This document shows, piece by piece, positions 10,058-28,812 of a DNA stretch of 32,185 bases; the first letter of the stretch is position 1; each line of letters opens with the position of its first letter. A program made the position numbers and the translations under genes. The notes under the pieces are model-generated. The model searched no databases and had not been told where the DNA came from. It was given only the letters and a program-made list of their open reading frames with translations. The stretch covers positions 1 to 32,185 of the forward strand of contig QCNM01000013.1 of assembly GCA_003210115.1 (NCBI GenBank), written 5' to 3'. Origin of the DNA: SAR116 cluster bacterium AG-426-A06. GTDB taxonomy: Bacteria > Pseudomonadota > Alphaproteobacteria > Puniceispirillales > Marisalimonadaceae.

Positions 10058-10486
10058 CCTTATTTTTTTGAAGAAATCTTTTATTAATTTTGAACATTCA
10101 TCTTCTTGTATCCCTGAATATATCTCACTACATACTCTATTATTAATTTTATTTTTTATACTACTATGAGGAATACTTGCTCCATAATACAACCTTTTAA
10201 TTCTTACTTGTTTTATCATTCCCATGCACATTTCGCAGGGCTGTAATGTTACCCAAATATCACAATTATCTAAGTATCTTTTATTAGTTTTTAAAAGAGC
10301 TTTATCAATTGCTATTTTTTCAGCGTGGAATAATGGATTATTTTTTTCTTCAACTTTATTGTATCCTTTTGAAATAATATTTTTAAATTCGTCAACAATA
10401 ATTGCTCCAACTGGAATTTCTTTTTTTCGTAAACATTTTTTTGCTTCATTTAAAGCTAGTTTCATAAAATCATCATACTTTAACAT
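10049..10486 (-). CDS. tadA: tRNA adenosine deaminase-like CDA-fold protein
   Basis: HAEKIAI and TLQPCEMCMGMI zinc-binding motifs with length and fold typical of TadA. Overlaps the purD 3' end by 9 nt. Confidence 0.88.
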   Translation of the reverse strand: MLKYDDFMKLALNEAKKCLRKKEIPVGAIIVDEFKNIISKGYNKVEEKNNPLFHAEKIAIDKALLKTNKRYLDNCDIWVTLQPCEMCMGMIKQVRIKRLYYGASIPHSSIKNKINNRVCSEIYSGIQEDECSKLIKDFFKKIRSD

Positions 10487-10552
10487 TGAAAGCCCCTCTA
10501 ATTTAAATTAATTAATACTGTAAAAGTGAATTAGTTAATAATAAACTTAATA

Positions 10553-11281
10553 ATGGTTGATAATTTAATTAATGAAAGAATAGCAAAAAAAATTGCCAAT
10601 TCAGGCTTATGCTCAAGACGAGAAGCTGAGCGTTTAATTAATAATGGATGTGTTAAGTTAAATGGTAATGTTATAAAAAATTGTAACATTAATGTTACAA
10701 CAAAAGATATTATTGAAGTTAATAACCAAAAACTAAAAGCAAAAGAAAAGGTTAAACTTTGGTTATATTATAAAAAAAAAGGCTTTCTAGTAACAACAAA
10801 GGATACACAAGGAAGACCTAATATTTTTGATGAAATAAAATTTAAAATTAATAAAAGATTAATATCTATTGGTAGACTTGATTATTATTCTGAAGGATTA
10901 TTGTTATTAACAAATAATGGCGACTTTGCTCGAAAACTTGAATTGCCTCAAAATAAATTTCAAAGAACTTATAAAGTAAGAATTTTTGGAACAATTGATA
11001 ATAAAATCAAAGATAAACTTAAAAATGGAATTACAGTGAAAAGTATTAAATACAAACCTATCGAATTAGAACTTGAAGAAGAAAAAGGGAAAAACAGATG
11101 GTTAACTATGAGACTATATGAGGGTAAAAATCGAGAAATAAGAAAAATAATGGAGCATTTTGGTTGTACAGTAAATAGACTGATAAGAATATCATACGGT
11201 CCATTCAATTTAAAAGACCTTAAACCTGGGCAGTTAACTGAACTTAAATATAAAAATTTTAACAAATTACTAAAATCTTAA
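10553..11281 (+). CDS. rluB: Pseudouridine synthase, RluB/RsuA family
   Basis: S4 domain (RIAKKIANSGLCSRREAERLINNGCVKLNG), SIGRLDYYSEGLLLLTNNGD, YEGKNREIRKIMEHFG. Confidence 0.9.
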   Translation: MVDNLINERIAKKIANSGLCSRREAERLINNGCVKLNGNVIKNCNINVTTKDIIEVNNQKLKAKEKVKLWLYYKKKGFLVTTKDTQGRPNIFDEIKFKINKRLISIGRLDYYSEGLLLLTNNGDFARKLELPQNKFQRTYKVRIFGTIDNKIKDKLKNGITVKSIKYKPIELELEEEKGKNRWLTMRLYEGKNREIRKIMEHFGCTVNRLIRISYGPFNLKDLKPGQLTELKYKNFNKLLKS

Positions 11282-20603: not shown

Positions 20604-21869
20604 CTATATTATTTCATTATAATTATCTCTTAAGTCTAAGATACTTTTTAAAATCACCTCAGAACCTTTTTTTATATTAATACTTTTTGTAAATTCCTCT
20701 GGGCAATGACTTAAACCTTTGTGACATGGTATGAAAATTATTGATGCTCTTGAAACTTTTGCTAAATGAGCTGTATCATGGCCAGCTCCACTATCCATCA
20801 TCATAAATGTGTAGTTTAAATCATTTGCTGATTTTTTTAAACTTTCATTTATGCTTTTGTTCATCTCTATATAAGGTGAATTAATAAGATCGTTAAAATT
20901 AATTTTTAAATTTTCTAATTTTTTTAATTTTATAATTTCTTTATTTAATTGATTTAAAAAAAGATCTCTTGATGTTTCATTTACCACTCGTAAATCAATT
21001 ATAAACTCTACATCAGAAGGTATAATCGTCACATAATTTGGAGAGACTTCAATTTTTCCAACTGTTGCAACAAAATGTCTATTATCTTTTTGTGAGATTT
21101 CTTTTGCTAACTTATTAATAAATATTATCAATTTTGATGCCAGAACTAAAGCATCTTTTCTATTTTCCATCAAAGTTGTCCCGCTATGACTAGCTTGACC
21201 TTCAATTAAAATTTTGTGCCTTGAGATATTGGGCATTGACTCTACAACTCCAATATCAATTCCTTTATTTTCTAAAGTAGTCCCTTGTTCAATATGAAGT
21301 TCAAAGCATGCTAAAACGTTTTCAAATTGATTTGATAATTTCTTAATGTTTTTTGTGTTACCTCCAATTCTATCAATTTCGTCTTTTAGCATGATTCCTT
21401 TAGAATTTTTTCTATTAAGCATTCCTTCACTTAAAGTACCACATATGCCCCTAGAACCAATACAAGACATATTCCAATCATTAAGTTCTTCACCTAAATA
21501 ATCATAAACTTCAATGTCAAAGGGTAATTTTATATCGTTATCTGACAAAAATTTTATGATAGCGAGACCCGAAATAACTCCTGCAATACCATCATACTTA
21601 CCACCACAAACTACTGTATCTATATGAGATCCAATTAATATTTTTTTAGAGGCATTAGTTATTGATTTGTAGATACCAATTAAATTGCCTGAATCATCTA
21701 CTTTAGTAATTAAATTAAGTTCTTTAAATTTTTCAGTTAACCAAGCTCTACCTTGAATAAATTCTTCACTAAAAACTAATCGAGTAAAAGGTCTATCTTT
21801 TTCAGTACAGTTTGCTAACTGAGAAATACATTTATCAATAAAATCTAGATCAACGAAATTCATATTCAA
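20604..21869 (-). CDS. M20-family Zn-dependent amidohydrolase (N-carbamoyl-amino acid hydrolase/allantoate amidohydrolase-like)
   Basis: LIGSHIDTVVCGGKYDGIAGVISGL, CFELHIEQG, GQASHSGTT and MMDSGAGHDTAHLA. Confidence 0.85.
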   Translation of the reverse strand: MNMNFVDLDFIDKCISQLANCTEKDRPFTRLVFSEEFIQGRAWLTEKFKELNLITKVDDSGNLIGIYKSITNASKKILIGSHIDTVVCGGKYDGIAGVISGLAIIKFLSDNDIKLPFDIEVYDYLGEELNDWNMSCIGSRGICGTLSEGMLNRKNSKGIMLKDEIDRIGGNTKNIKKLSNQFENVLACFELHIEQGTTLENKGIDIGVVESMPNISRHKILIEGQASHSGTTLMENRKDALVLASKLIIFINKLAKEISQKDNRHFVATVGKIEVSPNYVTIIPSDVEFIIDLRVVNETSRDLFLNQLNKEIIKLKKLENLKINFNDLINSPYIEMNKSINESLKKSANDLNYTFMMMDSGAGHDTAHLAKVSRASIIFIPCHKGLSHCPEEFTKSINIKKGSEVILKSILDLRDNYNEII

Positions 21870-21897
21870 AAAAATAATCTTAGTTTAATTTAATTTT

Positions 21898-21950
21898 TGG
21901 TAGGGATACCCGGAATCGAACCAGGAAGCCTTACGGCACTGGTTTTTGAG
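21898..21950 (-). repeat. Truncated tRNA-Leu 3' fragment (att-like duplication)
   Basis: tggtagggatacccggaatcgaaccaggaagccttacggcactggtttttgag differs from 28728-28780 by two substitutions. Similarity ends after the anticodon loop. Confidence 0.93.
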
Positions 21951-21991
21951 TTACTTGATGACACTTATGTATAATCAACATAGTCAAGTAA
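21951..21991. repeat. 8-bp perfect inverted repeat just inside the left att fragment
   Basis: TTACTTGA (21951-21958) and TCAAGTAA (21984-21991). Confidence 0.6.
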
Positions 21992-22063
21992 TTCTAGGTA
22001 TTCCGCCAATTACAAATCAATTGTTATTCTGTATTATAAACACAGTCAAGCCAGTTTAAACAA

Positions 22064-22089
22064 TTTTCGTACCATTTTTCGTACCATTT
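22064..22089 (+). repeat. Tandem TTTCGTACC-type repeat, left island end
   Basis: TTTTCGTACCATTTTTCGTACCATTT. The two CGTACC units start 12 nt apart. A related pair is at 28623-28641. Confidence 0.75.
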
Positions 22090-22113
22090 ATTTATCAACA
22101 ATGGAGGATTATT

Positions 22114-22305
22114 ATGGAAAACAAAAACTTTAAACACGAAATAAATTATAAAATTGTTCATGCTTGAAAAGAAACCAAAAATGTAATTCAGCTATAAACT
22201 CTTTTAATTTCATCTTTTAAAGAGATTGATAACGAACAGATTACTAATAGCAAATCAGGGGAAAATGGACTACGAGTGACAATCCTTAAGCCCTTAGATT
22301 TATAA
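22114..22305 (+). pseudogene. Possible decayed small ORF of unknown function
   Basis: ATG downstream of a GGAGG motif opens a frame MENKNFKHEINYKIVHA*KETKNVIQL*TLLISSFKEIDNEQITNSKSGENGLRVTILKPLDL* with two in-frame stops. Confidence 0.25.
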
Positions 22306-22330
22306 AAATAATTTAATAACCGGAACGATA

Positions 22331-24034
22331 TCAGAACTGGTTCGGAAATAATTTTTTAGCTGTTTTCAATGAAATCAACCCATCAGCGATGTCTCGATCT
22401 ATAGCTGCTCTTTTGCGCAACTCAGGATTTCCATAACCACCACCACTAGGACCAGTAGATACCAGTGTTTCACCTGCCTTAACCGTGAAATATGGAACCT
22501 TTGAAGGCAAAGATGTAGATGTACCATCAGTATGTAATAATTTTAGATGTGCCTTGTGGCCACTTTGGCCACCATCAAAACCCCACGGCTCGAAAGCATG
22601 ACCTTCTCCTTCTAACGAAAAGCCGGCGTCATCCAAAAACGTAAACTCTCTAATAGCACCTATCCCACCCCGCCATTGTCCTGCTGCCATAGCGTCTTCT
22701 CTAAGTTCATACCGATCCACTCTGACGGGAATATGTGTTTCTATATCTTCAATTGGGTTATTGCGAGTGTTTGCATACAAGGTATCAACCGCATCCATAC
22801 CATCTAAGCCAGAGCGTCCGCCATAGCTACCTTCCATTATTTCCATATGCACCCAATGATTACCTTCACGTAGTCCTGAGAGGGCAACAACTCTCAAATT
22901 ACCTATACCTGCAGAGACTTTATCGGGAACAATTTGTGCAAATGCTTTCATAACAGTATCAGCAAGTTGGTTTCCCGGGCAGAAGCGCGCGATGACAGGT
23001 GCTGGAAAAATCGGATTTACCAAACTACCTTCGGGTGCCATAATCTCGATCGGGCGTGTAAGTCCAGAGTTTTGTGGTATTGACCCATAAATAACGCTGT
23101 CTAATAAAATTGAGCGAATAGTAAGCCAAATCGAACAATCTACAGTACCTACCAGAGGCATATTAATAGGTTTATCATCGACCTGCCTAGCAGTGCCTGA
23201 CAAATCTACTATTATAGAATCACCATTAATTTTTAGAGTAACTTTAATTACTAACTCGCGATGTGCTGGATCTGGGTCATCTAAATAACCATCAATTTTG
23301 GTTGTTGCGCTATACTCACCATCGGGAAGAGCACGAATAGCATCTCGCATCATTCTTTCAGAATAGTCCATAAGGTCATGAAAGGCATTGACAATTTTTT
23401 CTAAACTATATTTTTTCACTAACTCTAACAATCTTCTGGACCCAATTTTGGCGGCTTCGATTTGAGCCTCCATATCACCGACCACCAATTCTGTTGCTCG
23501 GATATTAGCTCTCAGGATGTGCCAAACGGCATCGTTGCGCTTGCCCTCATCAAACACTTTGATCGCCTTAAATTGTAATCCCTCTGCATATGTATCCACA
23601 GCATCCACTATTCCACAGCTTCCGGGAGAAAGCGCTCCAATGTCTAAGTGATGCGCAGTAGTTACCGACCAACCGATGAGTAGTTTGTCCAGAAAAACCG
23701 GAACACAAAAGGCAACATCTGGTCCATGAGATGCTCCACCATAAGGATCATTATGCATTATCACATCACCCGGCCTAACAGGATCTTCGCGCTCAGCAAG
23801 AACTTTGATTACATTCTTCACATAGCCTGGAATTGGACCTGACTGCAGTGGTGTAGACATCTTACATTCGCACATCTGTAGTCCGTTTGCATCTGTCAAC
23901 GCTGCACCAAAATCTTCAGATTCACGGATTATTGATGAATAAGACATGCGCATTAACTTATGCCCCATTTCGAGTGCAATGCTCTCGAGCGCACCCTGAA
24001 TCACGGCACCAGTTACAGGATCAATTCTGCTCAT
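22331..24034 (-). CDS. hyuB: Hydantoinase B/oxoprolinase family subunit
   Basis: DPVTGAVIQGALESIALEMGHKLMRMSYSSIIRESEDFGAALTDANG, HNDPYGGASHGPDV and PSGGGYGNPELR. Confidence 0.93.
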   Translation of the reverse strand: MSRIDPVTGAVIQGALESIALEMGHKLMRMSYSSIIRESEDFGAALTDANGLQMCECKMSTPLQSGPIPGYVKNVIKVLAEREDPVRPGDVIMHNDPYGGASHGPDVAFCVPVFLDKLLIGWSVTTAHHLDIGALSPGSCGIVDAVDTYAEGLQFKAIKVFDEGKRNDAVWHILRANIRATELVVGDMEAQIEAAKIGSRRLLELVKKYSLEKIVNAFHDLMDYSERMMRDAIRALPDGEYSATTKIDGYLDDPDPAHRELVIKVTLKINGDSIIVDLSGTARQVDDKPINMPLVGTVDCSIWLTIRSILLDSVIYGSIPQNSGLTRPIEIMAPEGSLVNPIFPAPVIARFCPGNQLADTVMKAFAQIVPDKVSAGIGNLRVVALSGLREGNHWVHMEIMEGSYGGRSGLDGMDAVDTLYANTRNNPIEDIETHIPVRVDRYELREDAMAAGQWRGGIGAIREFTFLDDAGFSLEGEGHAFEPWGFDGGQSGHKAHLKLLHTDGTSTSLPSKVPYFTVKAGETLVSTGPSGGGYGNPELRKRAAIDRDIADGLISLKTAKKLFPNQF

Positions 24035-26109
24035 GAGTTTGGCTCCAATGAAATTATTATATTGCCAGTGCTATGTACCTTCGCGGTTGCGTTTGGCGGC
24101 ACAACGGTTGTACTATCTTTTTGTAAAAAGATTGCAGGTCCCAAAATTTCAACGTTTATTGGCAACATGTTACGACGGTAAATCTGAGTCTTGAAATTTT
24201 GTAAGGAACCATCTAATCGAAAAACAGCGTCACGAGTTTGAACAAGAGCATTCTTTAAATCCCCATCTGCTTTGAAAGGAGAAAATATCATTTCTTTTGG
24301 TTGCCCTATTGCACTGACCCTTAGATTTACTACTTCTATGGGGCTTTCCGGAAAAGCTTTGCCGTATTCAACTGAATGGATCTCATGAAATTTTTGCCAG
24401 AGGGTTTGCAAACTTTTTTCAGAAATTTTTCCATTACCTAAACCCACTCTTAATTCATAACCTTGTCCAAGATATCGCAGATCGGCAGCCCGCTCAAAAT
24501 GAACTTCATTAGATGATAAGCCATCCTCGGCTAGTCGCTCATGGATCTCAGCTTCCATCTCTGCAAATTCAGAGTTAAATCTATACAGGTTTGGTTTGGT
24601 CGAAGATTGGAATTGAGTGCGTATTACATCATATTTGAGATCAGCAATTAAAAGCCCGAGGGCAGAAGTTATGCCAGGACTAATCGGTACGATAACTTCA
24701 GGCACTTCCAGCATCTGCGCTACCTCAGCTGCTTGGAGTGGACCTGCACCGCCCATTGCTACAAGTGAGAACTCTCTAGGATCTATGCCACGCTGTACTG
24801 TGCGTGACCTGATTGCATTGGCCATGTTAGCATTTAGTATCGTTAAAATACCTTCAGCAGCTTCTAAAAGATCAATCTTGAGTTTATTGGCCAACTCGCC
24901 AACAACATTTCTTGATGCGTTTACATCTAACGACATTTCGCCGCCTAAAAAATCATTGGGTTCGAGACGTCCTAGTACTAGGTTGGCGTCAGTGACAGTA
25001 GGTTTTTTACCTCCAAGTCCATATGCTGCTGGGCCGGGCATTGCACCGGCACTTTGTGGTCCTACTTTAAAAGCACCACCTTTATCTAAATAAGCAATAG
25101 ACCCTCCTCCAGCGCCGATTGTGTGAATATCGAGCATAGGCATTAAAAGCGGGAATCCAGCAATAGATGTAGATCGGGAATCAGTTTCAGAACATTTTCC
25201 ATTAATTACAATACCAATGTCTGCAGAAGTGCCTCCAATATCAAAGGTAATAACTTTACTCCGCTCACATTTTTCACCCACCCAAGCGCCGCCCAAAACA
25301 CCCGCGGCAAGGCCAGACATCATTGTAAGCGCAGGGTTTTGTAAAACCATACGAGGGGTAATCACACCACCATTGGACGCCATAATTCGCAAGTCGCCGG
25401 TTATATTATTTTTTGAAAGTGAATTTGCTAGATTTTTTACATATTTAGCAACTTTTGGACCAACAAACGAAGCAAGCGCAGTAGTTGTGAACCGCTCAAA
25501 TTCACGAAATTGTGGGGAAATCTCTGAGGAGGTGGTGATAAAAGCGTCAGGCATTATTTCGCCGACTAATTCCTTAGCGCGTCGCTCGTGTTTGGGATTC
25601 AGGTAGGAAAATAAAAAACAAATAGCTAGCGAGTCTACACCACTTTCTTTGAGCTCACTAGCAATTCTTAATACTTCATTTTCATCAAGTGGCTCCAGTT
25701 CATGACCAGTCGGAGGGGTTAGGCGCCCTTTAACAGTTTTTCGATATTGTCTTTGCACAAGAGGCCTGTTCTGCCATGGAATCTCTTGCATAATCGAGTA
25801 ATGATCAGGCCTTTGGTGACGACCAATATGAATGATGTCACGAAAGCCTTCATTTGTTATCATTCCTGTACAAGCACCTTTACCTTCAAGAACTGAGTTG
25901 GTTGCTGTTGTTGTTCCATGGAAAATCTGATTGATGCTTTTGGGTTTTAATTTACCCTTATCGACAAGCTCCAAAAGTCCAGTTATTACCCCGATGGAGG
26001 GATCGTCCTGCGTAGTCGACACTTTGTGAATATCAGTCTTCCCAGTTTCATGGTCCAAATAAATAAAGTCGGTGAAAGTACCACCCACGTCAATTCCTAC
26101 TAAGATCAC
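24031..26109 (-). CDS. hyuA: Hydantoinase A/oxoprolinase family subunit
   Basis: VGIDVGGTFTDFIYLD, HGTTTATNSVLEGKGA, TFDIGGTSADIGIV, MGGAGPLQAAEVA. 4-nt ATGA overlap with hyuB. Confidence 0.94.
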   Translation of the reverse strand: MILVGIDVGGTFTDFIYLDHETGKTDIHKVSTTQDDPSIGVITGLLELVDKGKLKPKSINQIFHGTTTATNSVLEGKGACTGMITNEGFRDIIHIGRHQRPDHYSIMQEIPWQNRPLVQRQYRKTVKGRLTPPTGHELEPLDENEVLRIASELKESGVDSLAICFLFSYLNPKHERRAKELVGEIMPDAFITTSSEISPQFREFERFTTTALASFVGPKVAKYVKNLANSLSKNNITGDLRIMASNGGVITPRMVLQNPALTMMSGLAAGVLGGAWVGEKCERSKVITFDIGGTSADIGIVINGKCSETDSRSTSIAGFPLLMPMLDIHTIGAGGGSIAYLDKGGAFKVGPQSAGAMPGPAAYGLGGKKPTVTDANLVLGRLEPNDFLGGEMSLDVNASRNVVGELANKLKIDLLEAAEGILTILNANMANAIRSRTVQRGIDPREFSLVAMGGAGPLQAAEVAQMLEVPEVIVPISPGITSALGLLIADLKYDVIRTQFQSSTKPNLYRFNSEFAEMEAEIHERLAEDGLSSNEVHFERAADLRYLGQGYELRVGLGNGKISEKSLQTLWQKFHEIHSVEYGKAFPESPIEVVNLRVSAIGQPKEMIFSPFKADGDLKNALVQTRDAVFRLDGSLQNFKTQIYRRNMLPINVEILGPAIFLQKDSTTVVPPNATAKVHSTGNIIISLEPNS

Positions 26110-26257
26110 CAGAAAGTCCTTCCAATTTTATAAATTATGAACAAATCAAGTACATTTCTGCTGCAAGATAACAGTATTTCAAAGGTTACAAATAAATTAT
26201 TTTTAATTTTTTGGCTATATATCATTAACATAGGGTTGGTAAAATGCTTTGCTCATA

Positions 26258-27124
26258 TTAATAACTCTGTGCTAAACGCCACATCAAGTATTCTTTACTT
26301 TCAATAGGTTCATACTTATCTGGTTCGTTTGTTAAATTTTTTACTATTGTTCCGGGTGTAGGATCAACAAAATGTGGCATACTATAACGTGGCATATGTA
26401 TATGAGTATTTACCACTCTATGCTTTGTGCTTACAAAGTAATCATTTGTCCAACGTTGTAATAAATCTCCAATGTTAACTACGACACAATCTTCCTCGAA
26501 AGGTACTGGATGCCAAACACCTCCTAAATCCTGAACTTCTAATCCGGGTACATCATTGATTTGCCAAAGCAAAGTAATGGTGCCGTAGTCACTGTGTTCT
26601 CCTATCCTCATTTGTCTATTCTCTAAGGAACCTTCATATGCTGGATAGTGAATTATTCTTGTAGTATTGTACATTTGCTGATGTGCATCAACCAGTGAAG
26701 TACCACAATCTAATATCGTATCAAACTTGTTAAGTATATTGTAAGTAAGTGTATCTGCAATACGTATAGACTCTTCTGCCTTGTTTTGAAAACCTGGAAC
26801 CCATCCATGGGGCCATAATTCATCAGGCATTCTTAAATTATTATAATTAAAACTTTCTTTCATATCTTTAGGCGCAGTTGGGTCTACATTTTCAGCACCC
26901 ATTACTGAATAACCTAAATTATTTTCTTTTCTATAAGAATATTTTTGTTTTGTTTCTAATGGTAGTTCAAAAAAATCTTTTATTGTTTTGAACCAATTAT
27001 CCATAGTCTTTTTATCTTCTGATGCAAGTGTATTTGTAAAGACTGCAAAGCCTACAGTAGTATAGGCTTTGCGGATCTCGTCTAATACTGATTCACTTTT
27101 AAAATCAATAATAGGGACTGACAT
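26258..27124 (-). CDS. 2OG-Fe(II) oxygenase, isopenicillin N synthase-like family
   Basis: HxD in GEHSDYGTITLL, distal His in FVSTKHRVVN, RxS in PRYSMPHFVDP and an N-terminal DIOX_N-like region. Confidence 0.9.
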   Translation of the reverse strand: MSVPIIDFKSESVLDEIRKAYTTVGFAVFTNTLASEDKKTMDNWFKTIKDFFELPLETKQKYSYRKENNLGYSVMGAENVDPTAPKDMKESFNYNNLRMPDELWPHGWVPGFQNKAEESIRIADTLTYNILNKFDTILDCGTSLVDAHQQMYNTTRIIHYPAYEGSLENRQMRIGEHSDYGTITLLWQINDVPGLEVQDLGGVWHPVPFEEDCVVVNIGDLLQRWTNDYFVSTKHRVVNTHIHMPRYSMPHFVDPTPGTIVKNLTNEPDKYEPIESKEYLMWRLAQSY

Positions 27125-27126
27125 AA

Positions 27127-28197
27127 TTATTTTCCAACAGGAACTTTAGCATCAATACCTTCTACATAGTACATCATACTATTTAGATGTGTATCGCTTG
27201 CTACTTCGCCATCTTTTAATTGCAATTTACCTGTATTGTCCTTTAACGGACCTGTAAATGCAAAATATTTTCCATTCCTTATGTCATTTTTAATTTTTTC
27301 TGCTTTTGCTTTAACATCTGCAGGCATATTTGTAAAAGGAGCCATTTGCACTACATCTTCGTTCATGTGTCCGAAGTAATCCATACTCTTCCAATTACCA
27401 TCAATTACTGCTTGTACTTTACTAATGTAGTAAGGTGACCAATTATCGATTGTTGCTGTCAACTGTGCCTTTGGTGCAAATCTGTATTGATCACTTGCTT
27501 GACCAAATCCAAACACTCCAGACTTTTCTGCAACTTGAATTGGAGAAGGAGAATCTGTGTGTTGTGCAACCATATCACATCCTTCTGCAATCATAACTTT
27601 TGCGGCATTTGCTTCTTTTGGTGGGTCATACCAAGTGTTTACCCATATAACATCGATATCAACTTTTGGGTTTACTGATTTAGCACCTAAGTAGTATGTG
27701 TTAATTTCACGTATAACTTCTGGAATAGGAAATGCGGCAACGTAACAAATTTTATTTGTTTTTGTCATCATGCCTGCAATAACACCTTGTACGTGTCTTG
27801 CTTGATATAATCTTAGTCCATAACTAGACATATTCTTAGATTGTTTATAACCAGTAGCATGTTCAAACTTTACGTTTGGAAATTCTTTAGCAACTTTTAA
27901 CATTGGCTCCATGTAACCAAAACTTGTAGCAAATATGATATTTGCTCCTTCTTTTGCCATGTTACGTATTGCTCTTTCAGCATCTGGTCCATATTTAACA
28001 TTTTCTAAATACATAGTTTCGACTTTGTCACCAAATGCCTTCTCAACATCTAATCTTCCAATGTCATGTCTATAAGTCCATCCATGATCACCAATTGGTC
28101 CAACATAGATAAAACCTACTTTGACTTTGTCACCAGCATGAGCAATACTGATAAACATCATTGACAATAAAACTGTCAATATTTTTAGTAGTTTCAT
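27127..28197 (-). CDS. BMP-family (PnrA-like) ABC transporter substrate-binding protein
   Basis: Sec-type signal peptide MKLLKILTVLLSMMFISIAHA, then KVGFIYVGPIGDHGWTYRHDIGR and IIFATSFGYMEPMLKVAKEFPNVKFEHATG. Confidence 0.9.
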   Translation of the reverse strand: MKLLKILTVLLSMMFISIAHAGDKVKVGFIYVGPIGDHGWTYRHDIGRLDVEKAFGDKVETMYLENVKYGPDAERAIRNMAKEGANIIFATSFGYMEPMLKVAKEFPNVKFEHATGYKQSKNMSSYGLRLYQARHVQGVIAGMMTKTNKICYVAAFPIPEVIREINTYYLGAKSVNPKVDIDVIWVNTWYDPPKEANAAKVMIAEGCDMVAQHTDSPSPIQVAEKSGVFGFGQASDQYRFAPKAQLTATIDNWSPYYISKVQAVIDGNWKSMDYFGHMNEDVVQMAPFTNMPADVKAKAEKIKNDIRNGKYFAFTGPLKDNTGKLQLKDGEVASDTHLNSMMYYVEGIDAKVPVGK

Positions 28198-28230
28198 TAT
28201 TTTTCCTTTCTCTTAGAGGGTGTTCTTTAA

Positions 28231-28423
28231 CTAAAATGCCTCACCCGGGGTTGATACTCTGTGTAAATCTAGTGTAACACGATTGTGTCCTCCACTACTG
28301 TTCTACTATGCTTAAACGGCACAACATAAGTTTTGATGTCATGCTTGTTTAATTCTTCTTCAAGTCTTGGGCAGTCATCAATAACTGCTTATTTGGAGAG
28401 ATCATAAGAAAATTTAGCAAAAT
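28231..28423 (-). pseudogene. C-terminal remnant of an amidinotransferase-superfamily (GATM/ADI-like) gene with two apparent frameshifts
   Basis: Joining frames on the minus strand gives ILLNFLMISPNK/AVIDDCPRLEEELNKHDIKTYVVPFKHSRTV/GGHNRVTLDLHRVSTPGEAF*. This resembles the amidinotransferase C-terminus (NVLML...V.VD....L...LEKHGI..I.V..RH.RTLGGGFHC.TLD..R). Each junction can be explained by one missing base. Confidence 0.65.
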
Positions 28424-28603
28424 CTAATTATGAGCGAATGTTTCTCCAACAAAACTTTGATAAACTAAATCATCTTTACCTAATTTATTAAAGAAACAAA
28501 AAAAAAGAAAATCAAATGGTCTTAGTTGATTTTTTTTAAATTGCTTAAAATATTTGCATAAACATTAAAATTCCCAAAGAAAGTCCATAAGTAGGATGCA
28601 TAT

Positions 28604-28614
28604 AGTGTCATCAA
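28604..28614. repeat. Right-end copy of an 11-bp inverted terminal motif
   Basis: AGTGTCATCAA is the reverse complement of TTGATGACACT at 21955-21965. Confidence 0.5.
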
Positions 28615-28622
28615 ATACTCAA

Positions 28623-28641
28623 TTTCGTACCATTTTCGTAC
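28623..28641 (+). repeat. Tandem TTTCGTAC-type repeat, right island end
   Basis: TTTCGTACCATTTTCGTAC. Units start 11 nt apart, in the same orientation as the pair at 22064-22089. Confidence 0.7.
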
Positions 28642-28727
28642 AACGTTTAGATAAATTAGAAATGTTGGTTAAATTTAAAACCACGAATAAGCTTCCGAAA
28701 TCGTTATCTACCTTTATTTGTGAAGTT

Positions 28728-28812
28728 TGGTAGGGATACCCGGAATCGAACCGGGAAGCCTTGCGGCACTGGTTTTTGAGACCAGCGTGTTTACCTATTT
28801 CACCATATCCCC
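28728..28812 (-). tRNA. tRNA-Leu (anticodon CAA), CCA encoded
   Basis: Reverse complement GGGGATATGGTGAAATAGGTAAACACGCTGGTCTCAAAAACCAGTGCCGCAAGGCTTCCCGGTTCGATTCCGGGTATCCCTACCA. Acceptor GGGGATA/TATCCCT, anticodon arm CTGGT-CTCAAAA-ACCAG, long variable arm GCC/GGC and T-arm CCCGG-TTCGATT-CCGGG. Confidence 0.96.

Follow-up and report, generated by a model that had tools for sequence, protein, structure and literature searches.

A metabolic island without an integrase gene at tRNA-Leu(CAA) in a SAR116 bacterium, and its near-identical copy in another genus

Genes and boundaries of the island

The window analysed here is the whole 32,185-nt stretch of SAR116 cluster bacterium AG-426-A06 (contig QCNM01000013.1), and its sole tRNA, as detected by ARAGORN, is a tRNA-Leu(CAA) on the minus strand (Table 1). 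Between this tRNA and a second copy of its 3′ half lie four genes, all on the minus strand: hyuB, hyuA, a gene for a 2OG-Fe(II) oxygenase and one for a Bmp-type binding protein. An earlier note on this DNA had described the intact tRNA, a same-orientation copy of its 3′ part at 21898-21950 with two substitutions that ends at the anticodon loop, and accessory metabolic genes in the ~6.8 kb between the repeats, and had explained the arrangement by site-specific integration into the tRNA gene with displacement of the old 3′ end. ARAGORN and our repeat search agree with this geometry in each detail examined, the distal copy terminating in the anticodon loop, and Pfam recognises the four genes. The repeat is a 55-nt core, composed of 53 nt of tRNA and 2 nt past the tRNA 3′ end, whose two copies are identical at 53 of 55 positions in the same orientation and lie ~6.8 kb apart. 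No other direct repeat in the 9-kb region searched comes near it in length, the next having at most 23 nt, and a chance origin is therefore excluded. GC content is ~25-30% in the flanks (about 27% overall) and 34-44% inside the island, with ~43% in hyuAB and ~34-35% in the Bmp and 2OG genes.

Table 1. Features of the island and of its target tRNA, in window positions.
Feature	Position	Strand	Basis
Distal core repeat: displaced host tRNA 3′ half, 2 substitutions	21896-21950	-	Repeat search, empty-site alignments
Conserved left element end; inverted repeat TTACTTGA...TCAAGTAA at 21951-21991	21951-22090		Alignment to 30 further left ends
Two arm-type repeats (TTTCGTACCAT on the + strand), 22065-22075 and 22077-22087	22065-22087	-	Left-end alignment
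hyuB, Hydantoinase_B, 567 aa	22331-24034	-	PF02538, E=6e-147
hyuA, Hydantoinase_A, 692 aa	24031-26109	-	PF01968/PF05378
Bmp-2OG block, inserted in hyuA upstream region	26245-28357		Also near tRNA-Arg in G028, G072
2OG-Fe(II) oxygenase, 288 aa	26258-27124	-	PF03171
Bmp/PnrA-like ABC substrate-binding protein, 356 aa	27127-28197	-	PF02608
Integrase gene remnant, last six codons (PKKVHK) and stop	28574-28594	+	Aligned to integrase ends of G002, G005, G023, G067
Right element end; arm-type repeats 28623-28633 and 28634-28644 (latter with 2 mismatches)	28595-28725		Alignment
tRNA-proximal core repeat (3′ half of tRNA + 2 nt)	28726-28780	-	Breakpoint of empty-site alignments
tRNA-Leu(CAA), intact, integration target	28728-28812	-	ARAGORN; single copy at empty sites

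Empty sites in related genomes, which the earlier note had proposed as a check, are found in five congeners and in a sixth genome. In the five (G004, G007, G009, G011 and G012) a single intact tRNA-Leu separates the M20 and VTT genes, which lie ~160 bp from each other; G006 is also empty at tRNA-Leu, but M20 itself is missing. The alignments to the empty sites break at 21950 and 28726, leaving exactly one 55-nt core, and in the nearest congener, G011, the flanks of the site are 97-98% identical to the window. Just outside the fragment, positions 21840-21895 run continuously into the empty-site flank, which identifies the fragment as the displaced host 3′ end; the 3′ half of the intact tRNA-Leu(CAA) is, on this comparison, the one now supplied by the element. 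With a tRNA 3′ repeat at the far boundary and an empty site in close relatives, the segment from 21896 to 28780 is thus identified as a tRNA-integrated genomic island, of whose own integrase gene just the last six codons are left.

The earlier note had named an ancestral tandem tRNA cluster as one case that would speak against integration. Under this explanation the fragment would be what is left of a second tRNA gene, and the genes that separate it from the intact one would be resident. The orientation of the fragment, which is that of the tRNA, fits such a cluster, but all four island genes are absent from the empty sites, where there is one tRNA, and this refutes it. In addition, the tRNA fragments are followed not by a tRNA 5′ half but by a conserved element end of ~140 nt that recurs in other islands, and GC content breaks at the island edge, so that we give this explanation practically no weight.

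Element ends and a shared insertion site

The left element end (~140 nt) carries an inverted repeat and two CGTACC arms. Among 31 left ends of the family, the distances of the arms from the core are ~115 and ~127 nt; both arms, at no more than 2 mismatches, are kept in 20 of the 31. The right-end arms have been lost in some cassettes, which are probably fixed. A stretch within the window's left end, 21990-22020, was considered as a possible tRNA 5′ half; the resemblance was rejected by eye, and the stretch belongs to the conserved element end.

The family of integrases to which the remnant can be aligned is preserved in relatives. An intact 370-aa tyrosine integrase adjoins the same tRNA in G023 and G067, and the congener G002 has a different insertion of 2.4 kb at this position. 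Its left end is the same, it has arm-type repeats, and what adjoins the tRNA is the C-terminus of a broken integrase. A tblastn search found no integrase within the window island, and none of this tRNA-Leu type was found in the window's own assembly, which is 57% complete. Across 385 genomes of the class (E <= 1e-60), the sole match was the window genome's own relative of this integrase, which is 50-52% identical and located beside a tRNA-Trp (L106 9099-10337; tRNA at 10486-10561). A stretch resembling the left-end arms lies 3.6 kb from it, and the tRNA-Trp element is, by these similarities, a sister element with another target.

Neither the island nor those integrase-bearing elements that were examined showed recognisable genes for conjugation or packaging, and the island has no phage or phage-satellite genes. 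Searches of IMG/VR for the att pattern (in two forms), the integrase and hyuA gave no match, and phage records contained no match to the integrase at 60% identity or above, the best among the matches listed being streptococcal satellite phages at 27-28%.

The left element end was also searched across 136 genomes of the order. In the sister genus, islands are present at this tRNA in many genomes, several of them in tandem, and tRNA-Leu(CAA) is, on the strength of these genomes, a family-wide hot spot of accretion. We counted 24 complete core-to-core segments. A full integrase is present in one of them and pieces in four; the other 19 gave no convincing integrase match, three hits with E 0.004-0.009 in cassettes of G030, G023 and G065 having been treated as chance and counted as none. 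The segments are not independent, as an amidohydrolase-plus-ABC-transporter cassette of 42-48% GC recurs among them, and the cassette counts are affected by contig breaks; all relatives used are drafts. One further cassette pairs an amidase with an ABC transporter of the branched-chain type, and TPR-methyltransferase proteins are encoded in two. The segments with an integrase or pieces of one have restriction or defence-like genes, McrBC and a DpdF-like protein among them. Examples are L102 6603-9628 and L104 11184-17119, integrase or remnant elements with McrBC and DpdF/Mko-like defence genes, in contrast to the metabolic cassettes, which have no integrase. A second integrase-free element, in which two large ORFs of 459 and 744 aa gave no Pfam match, is found in G035 and G030 (L054 1224-5752, L138 1-3686), where it is 99.3% identical over 3.5 kb and adjoins different cassettes.

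The tandem arrays of G067 and G077 have the integrase-bearing element closest to the tRNA and the cassettes distal to it, an order predicted by accretion; the G077 integrase is N-terminally truncated. The same order seems to be present in G023, where it is pieced together across two contigs. The window island stands alone at its tRNA.

A copy in another genus and a composite interior

The same island is carried by G030 (matching the SAR116 single cell AG-915-M14), which belongs to a different genus. The two islands are 98.06% identical exactly from core to core. Beyond each core, identity over the next 100 nt is at background level, 31-38%. The chromosomes around them are far more diverged: ileS is 70% identical at the DNA level with a dS of ~1.5, and the 20-kb flanking core genome is mostly 63-73% identical to G030, G077 and G072, against 95% to G011. 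The cargo, by comparison, has a dS of 0.012-0.064 and a dN/dS of ~0.12-0.25 and is free of internal stops, values that show it to have been kept intact under purifying selection. We show by sequence comparison that the island integrated and spread across genera as a unit.

Since draft genomes are involved and the named relatives have single-cell-style identifiers, one might suspect a chimera formed during assembly or amplification, or carry-over from one single-cell library into another. However, the copies are 98% and not 100% identical, their att cores are joined to different sequence (one copy to the host M20 flank, the second to further cassettes), and sub-blocks of the island recur in further genomes; an artefact of this kind is hardly credible.

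The sharp edges of the shared segment also bear on how it was transferred. Linear-DNA routes are known in marine alphaproteobacteria, and linear DNA from a gene transfer agent, transformation or a vesicle might have been recombined through the conserved 150-200 bp island ends, giving recent transfer without an integrase. Left ends are up to 97% identical over 200 bp among islands, so an occupied site would provide homology. However, identity ends exactly at the core edges on both sides, the congener sites are mostly empty, with the tRNA itself as the sole shared sequence, and chromosomal flanks are ~30% different between genera. We consider homologous recombination an unlikely route.

When was the integrase lost? 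The lineages could each have received an autonomous island whose integrase gene disappeared later, so that a fixed and immobile remnant was left. The island without integrase, the two substitutions in its displaced core and the decayed integrases common at this site would agree with such a history. Yet the window, G030, G077 and G072 copies share one truncated integrase junction, which dates the loss to a time before the spread, and the dS between the window and G030 cargo is very low, as given above. Separate late losses seem improbable to us, well below even the homologous route; the island could be immobile from now on.

Two gene blocks make up the interior of the island: the Bmp-2OG block interrupts the region upstream of hyuA, a composite structure that accounts for the two levels of GC. 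In the congeners G001, G008 and G011 the hyuAB block, 93% identical, occupies another locus, away from tRNA-Leu and without att arms, and the region upstream of hyuA is unbroken there (L192 7157-11318, L193 7196-11337 and L194 1438-5598); the tRNA-Leu site of G011 is empty. The 2.1-kb Bmp-2OG block is found near a tRNA-Arg(ACG) in G028 and G072 at 97.7% identity (L195 8756-10868 and L196 8407-10520). An orphan C-terminal coding fragment on the minus strand at 28259-28357 (RLEEELNKHDIKTYVVPFKHSRTVVEDTIVLH and a stop, read by eye; no Pfam match) travels with this block. At tRNA-Leu-type att sites, hyuAB stands alone in G072 and G026, and Bmp-2OG alone in G077. Fusion of two att cassettes, one with Bmp-2OG only as in G077 and one with hyuAB only as in G072, was considered and dropped: right-end sequence is shared and the G077 left end is missing, which suggests deletion or rearrangement of a common composite. 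Inspection by eye revealed no vestigial att between the hyuAB and Bmp-2OG blocks.

Mobility and relation to known systems

How might an island that lacks an integrase move between genomes? The reading we favour, and hold to be probable, is that of a CIME-like metabolic cassette of the cis-mobilizable type, moved by the integrases of neighbouring elements. The island would originally have been made by a tyrosine integrase of the family found beside the same tRNA in relatives, with the crossover in the anticodon loop. A foreign hyuAB block would then have replaced the interior of an integrase-bearing element, and the Bmp-2OG block would have been placed upstream of hyuA. As the island cannot excise itself, it would move by means of an accreted or trans-supplied integrase: either an element with an integrase integrates next to it at this tRNA and mobilises it in cis, or the integrase is given in trans. 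Some vehicle would carry the excised DNA to another cell; this step and the helper step are ones we infer.

CIMEs and their accretion have been described for streptococcal ICEs and IMEs (review PMC5704250). The island fits this concept in retaining attL and attR, with cores and arm sites at both ends, in having no integration or transfer genes, as judged from Pfam analysis of its four genes and the negative integrase tblastn, and in the tandem arrangement with integrase-bearing elements at one target that is seen in its relatives G067, G077 and, across contigs, G023. As to descent, it appears to derive from an integrase-bearing element, in whose relatives no conjugation genes were recognised; the integrase-bearing relatives seen here carry replication- and defence-type genes. 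The closest worked example is the set of Dehalococcoides ssrA islands, 15 of which have no integration module and were suggested to be cis-mobilizable (PMC3146451). These are likewise tandem islands with metabolic genes downstream of one small-RNA gene, but they use a tmRNA target and a serine recombinase, whereas here the target is tRNA-Leu(CAA) and the enzyme a tyrosine integrase, and here a near-identical integrase-free island is present in two genera. Tycheposons, described from marine Prochlorococcus and Methylophilaceae, contain a tyrosine recombinase (PMC10872708). They resemble the present system in their marine hosts, tRNA border, tyrosine recombinase system and nutrient-related cargo; in contrast, our island has no tyrosine recombinase and is bounded by a partial tRNA copy.

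A wider reading, which we put forward tentatively and rather doubt, is integron-like exchange without an integron: tRNA-Leu(CAA) would be a docking site shared across a SAR116 family, the integrase would come from a few defence-bearing elements, and metabolic cassettes without an integrase would form a pool that crosses genera as exact att-to-att units. The pool in this same joint reading would comprise hydantoinase, amidase or amidohydrolase cassettes, often with matching transporters. Integron gene-cassette arrays hold integrase-free cassettes in tandem at one docking site, the newest nearest to the site, and the tandem integrase-free cassettes at a single docking site are alike. In contrast to integrons, neither an integron integrase nor attC hairpins were recognised here, recombination sites consist of a tRNA 3′ half plus arm sites, and each cassette has several genes.

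SAR116 is an abundant bacterial group of the surface ocean whose gain of metabolic genes is little described; the literature searched gave no description of this tRNA-Leu(CAA) site. The island type is already known, and it is the documentation that is unusually good: target, empty site, crossover region, arm sites, lost integrase, intact integrase in relatives and recent cross-genus spread are visible together. Relative to the earlier note, the loss of the integrase, the two-block composite, the family-wide island set at this tRNA and the near-identical copy in another genus are new. This makes it possible to test whether nutrient genes spread with the aid of a helper among uncultured marine bacteria. 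Surveys keyed to recombinases would overlook most such islands, here 19 of 24 segments.

Finally, the island cargo probably serves to scavenge nitrogen and carbon from cyclic amides or nucleobase-like compounds. From their protein families, HyuAB would open the ring of hydantoin- or lactam-type compounds, and the Bmp protein would be a nucleoside-type binding protein. The nearest named NCBIfam models for hyuA and hyuB are caprolactamase subunits (alpha for hyuA), below cut-off, and the nearest PDB relative of the 2OG-Fe(II) oxygenase is thymine dioxygenase. The M20 gene resident beside the site (20604-21869, minus strand), already present at empty sites, matches TIGR01879, the hydantoinase/carbamoylase family, over cut-off. 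The island thus sets a hydantoinase beside a possible carbamoylase partner, and we speculate that it may have landed next to a useful one.
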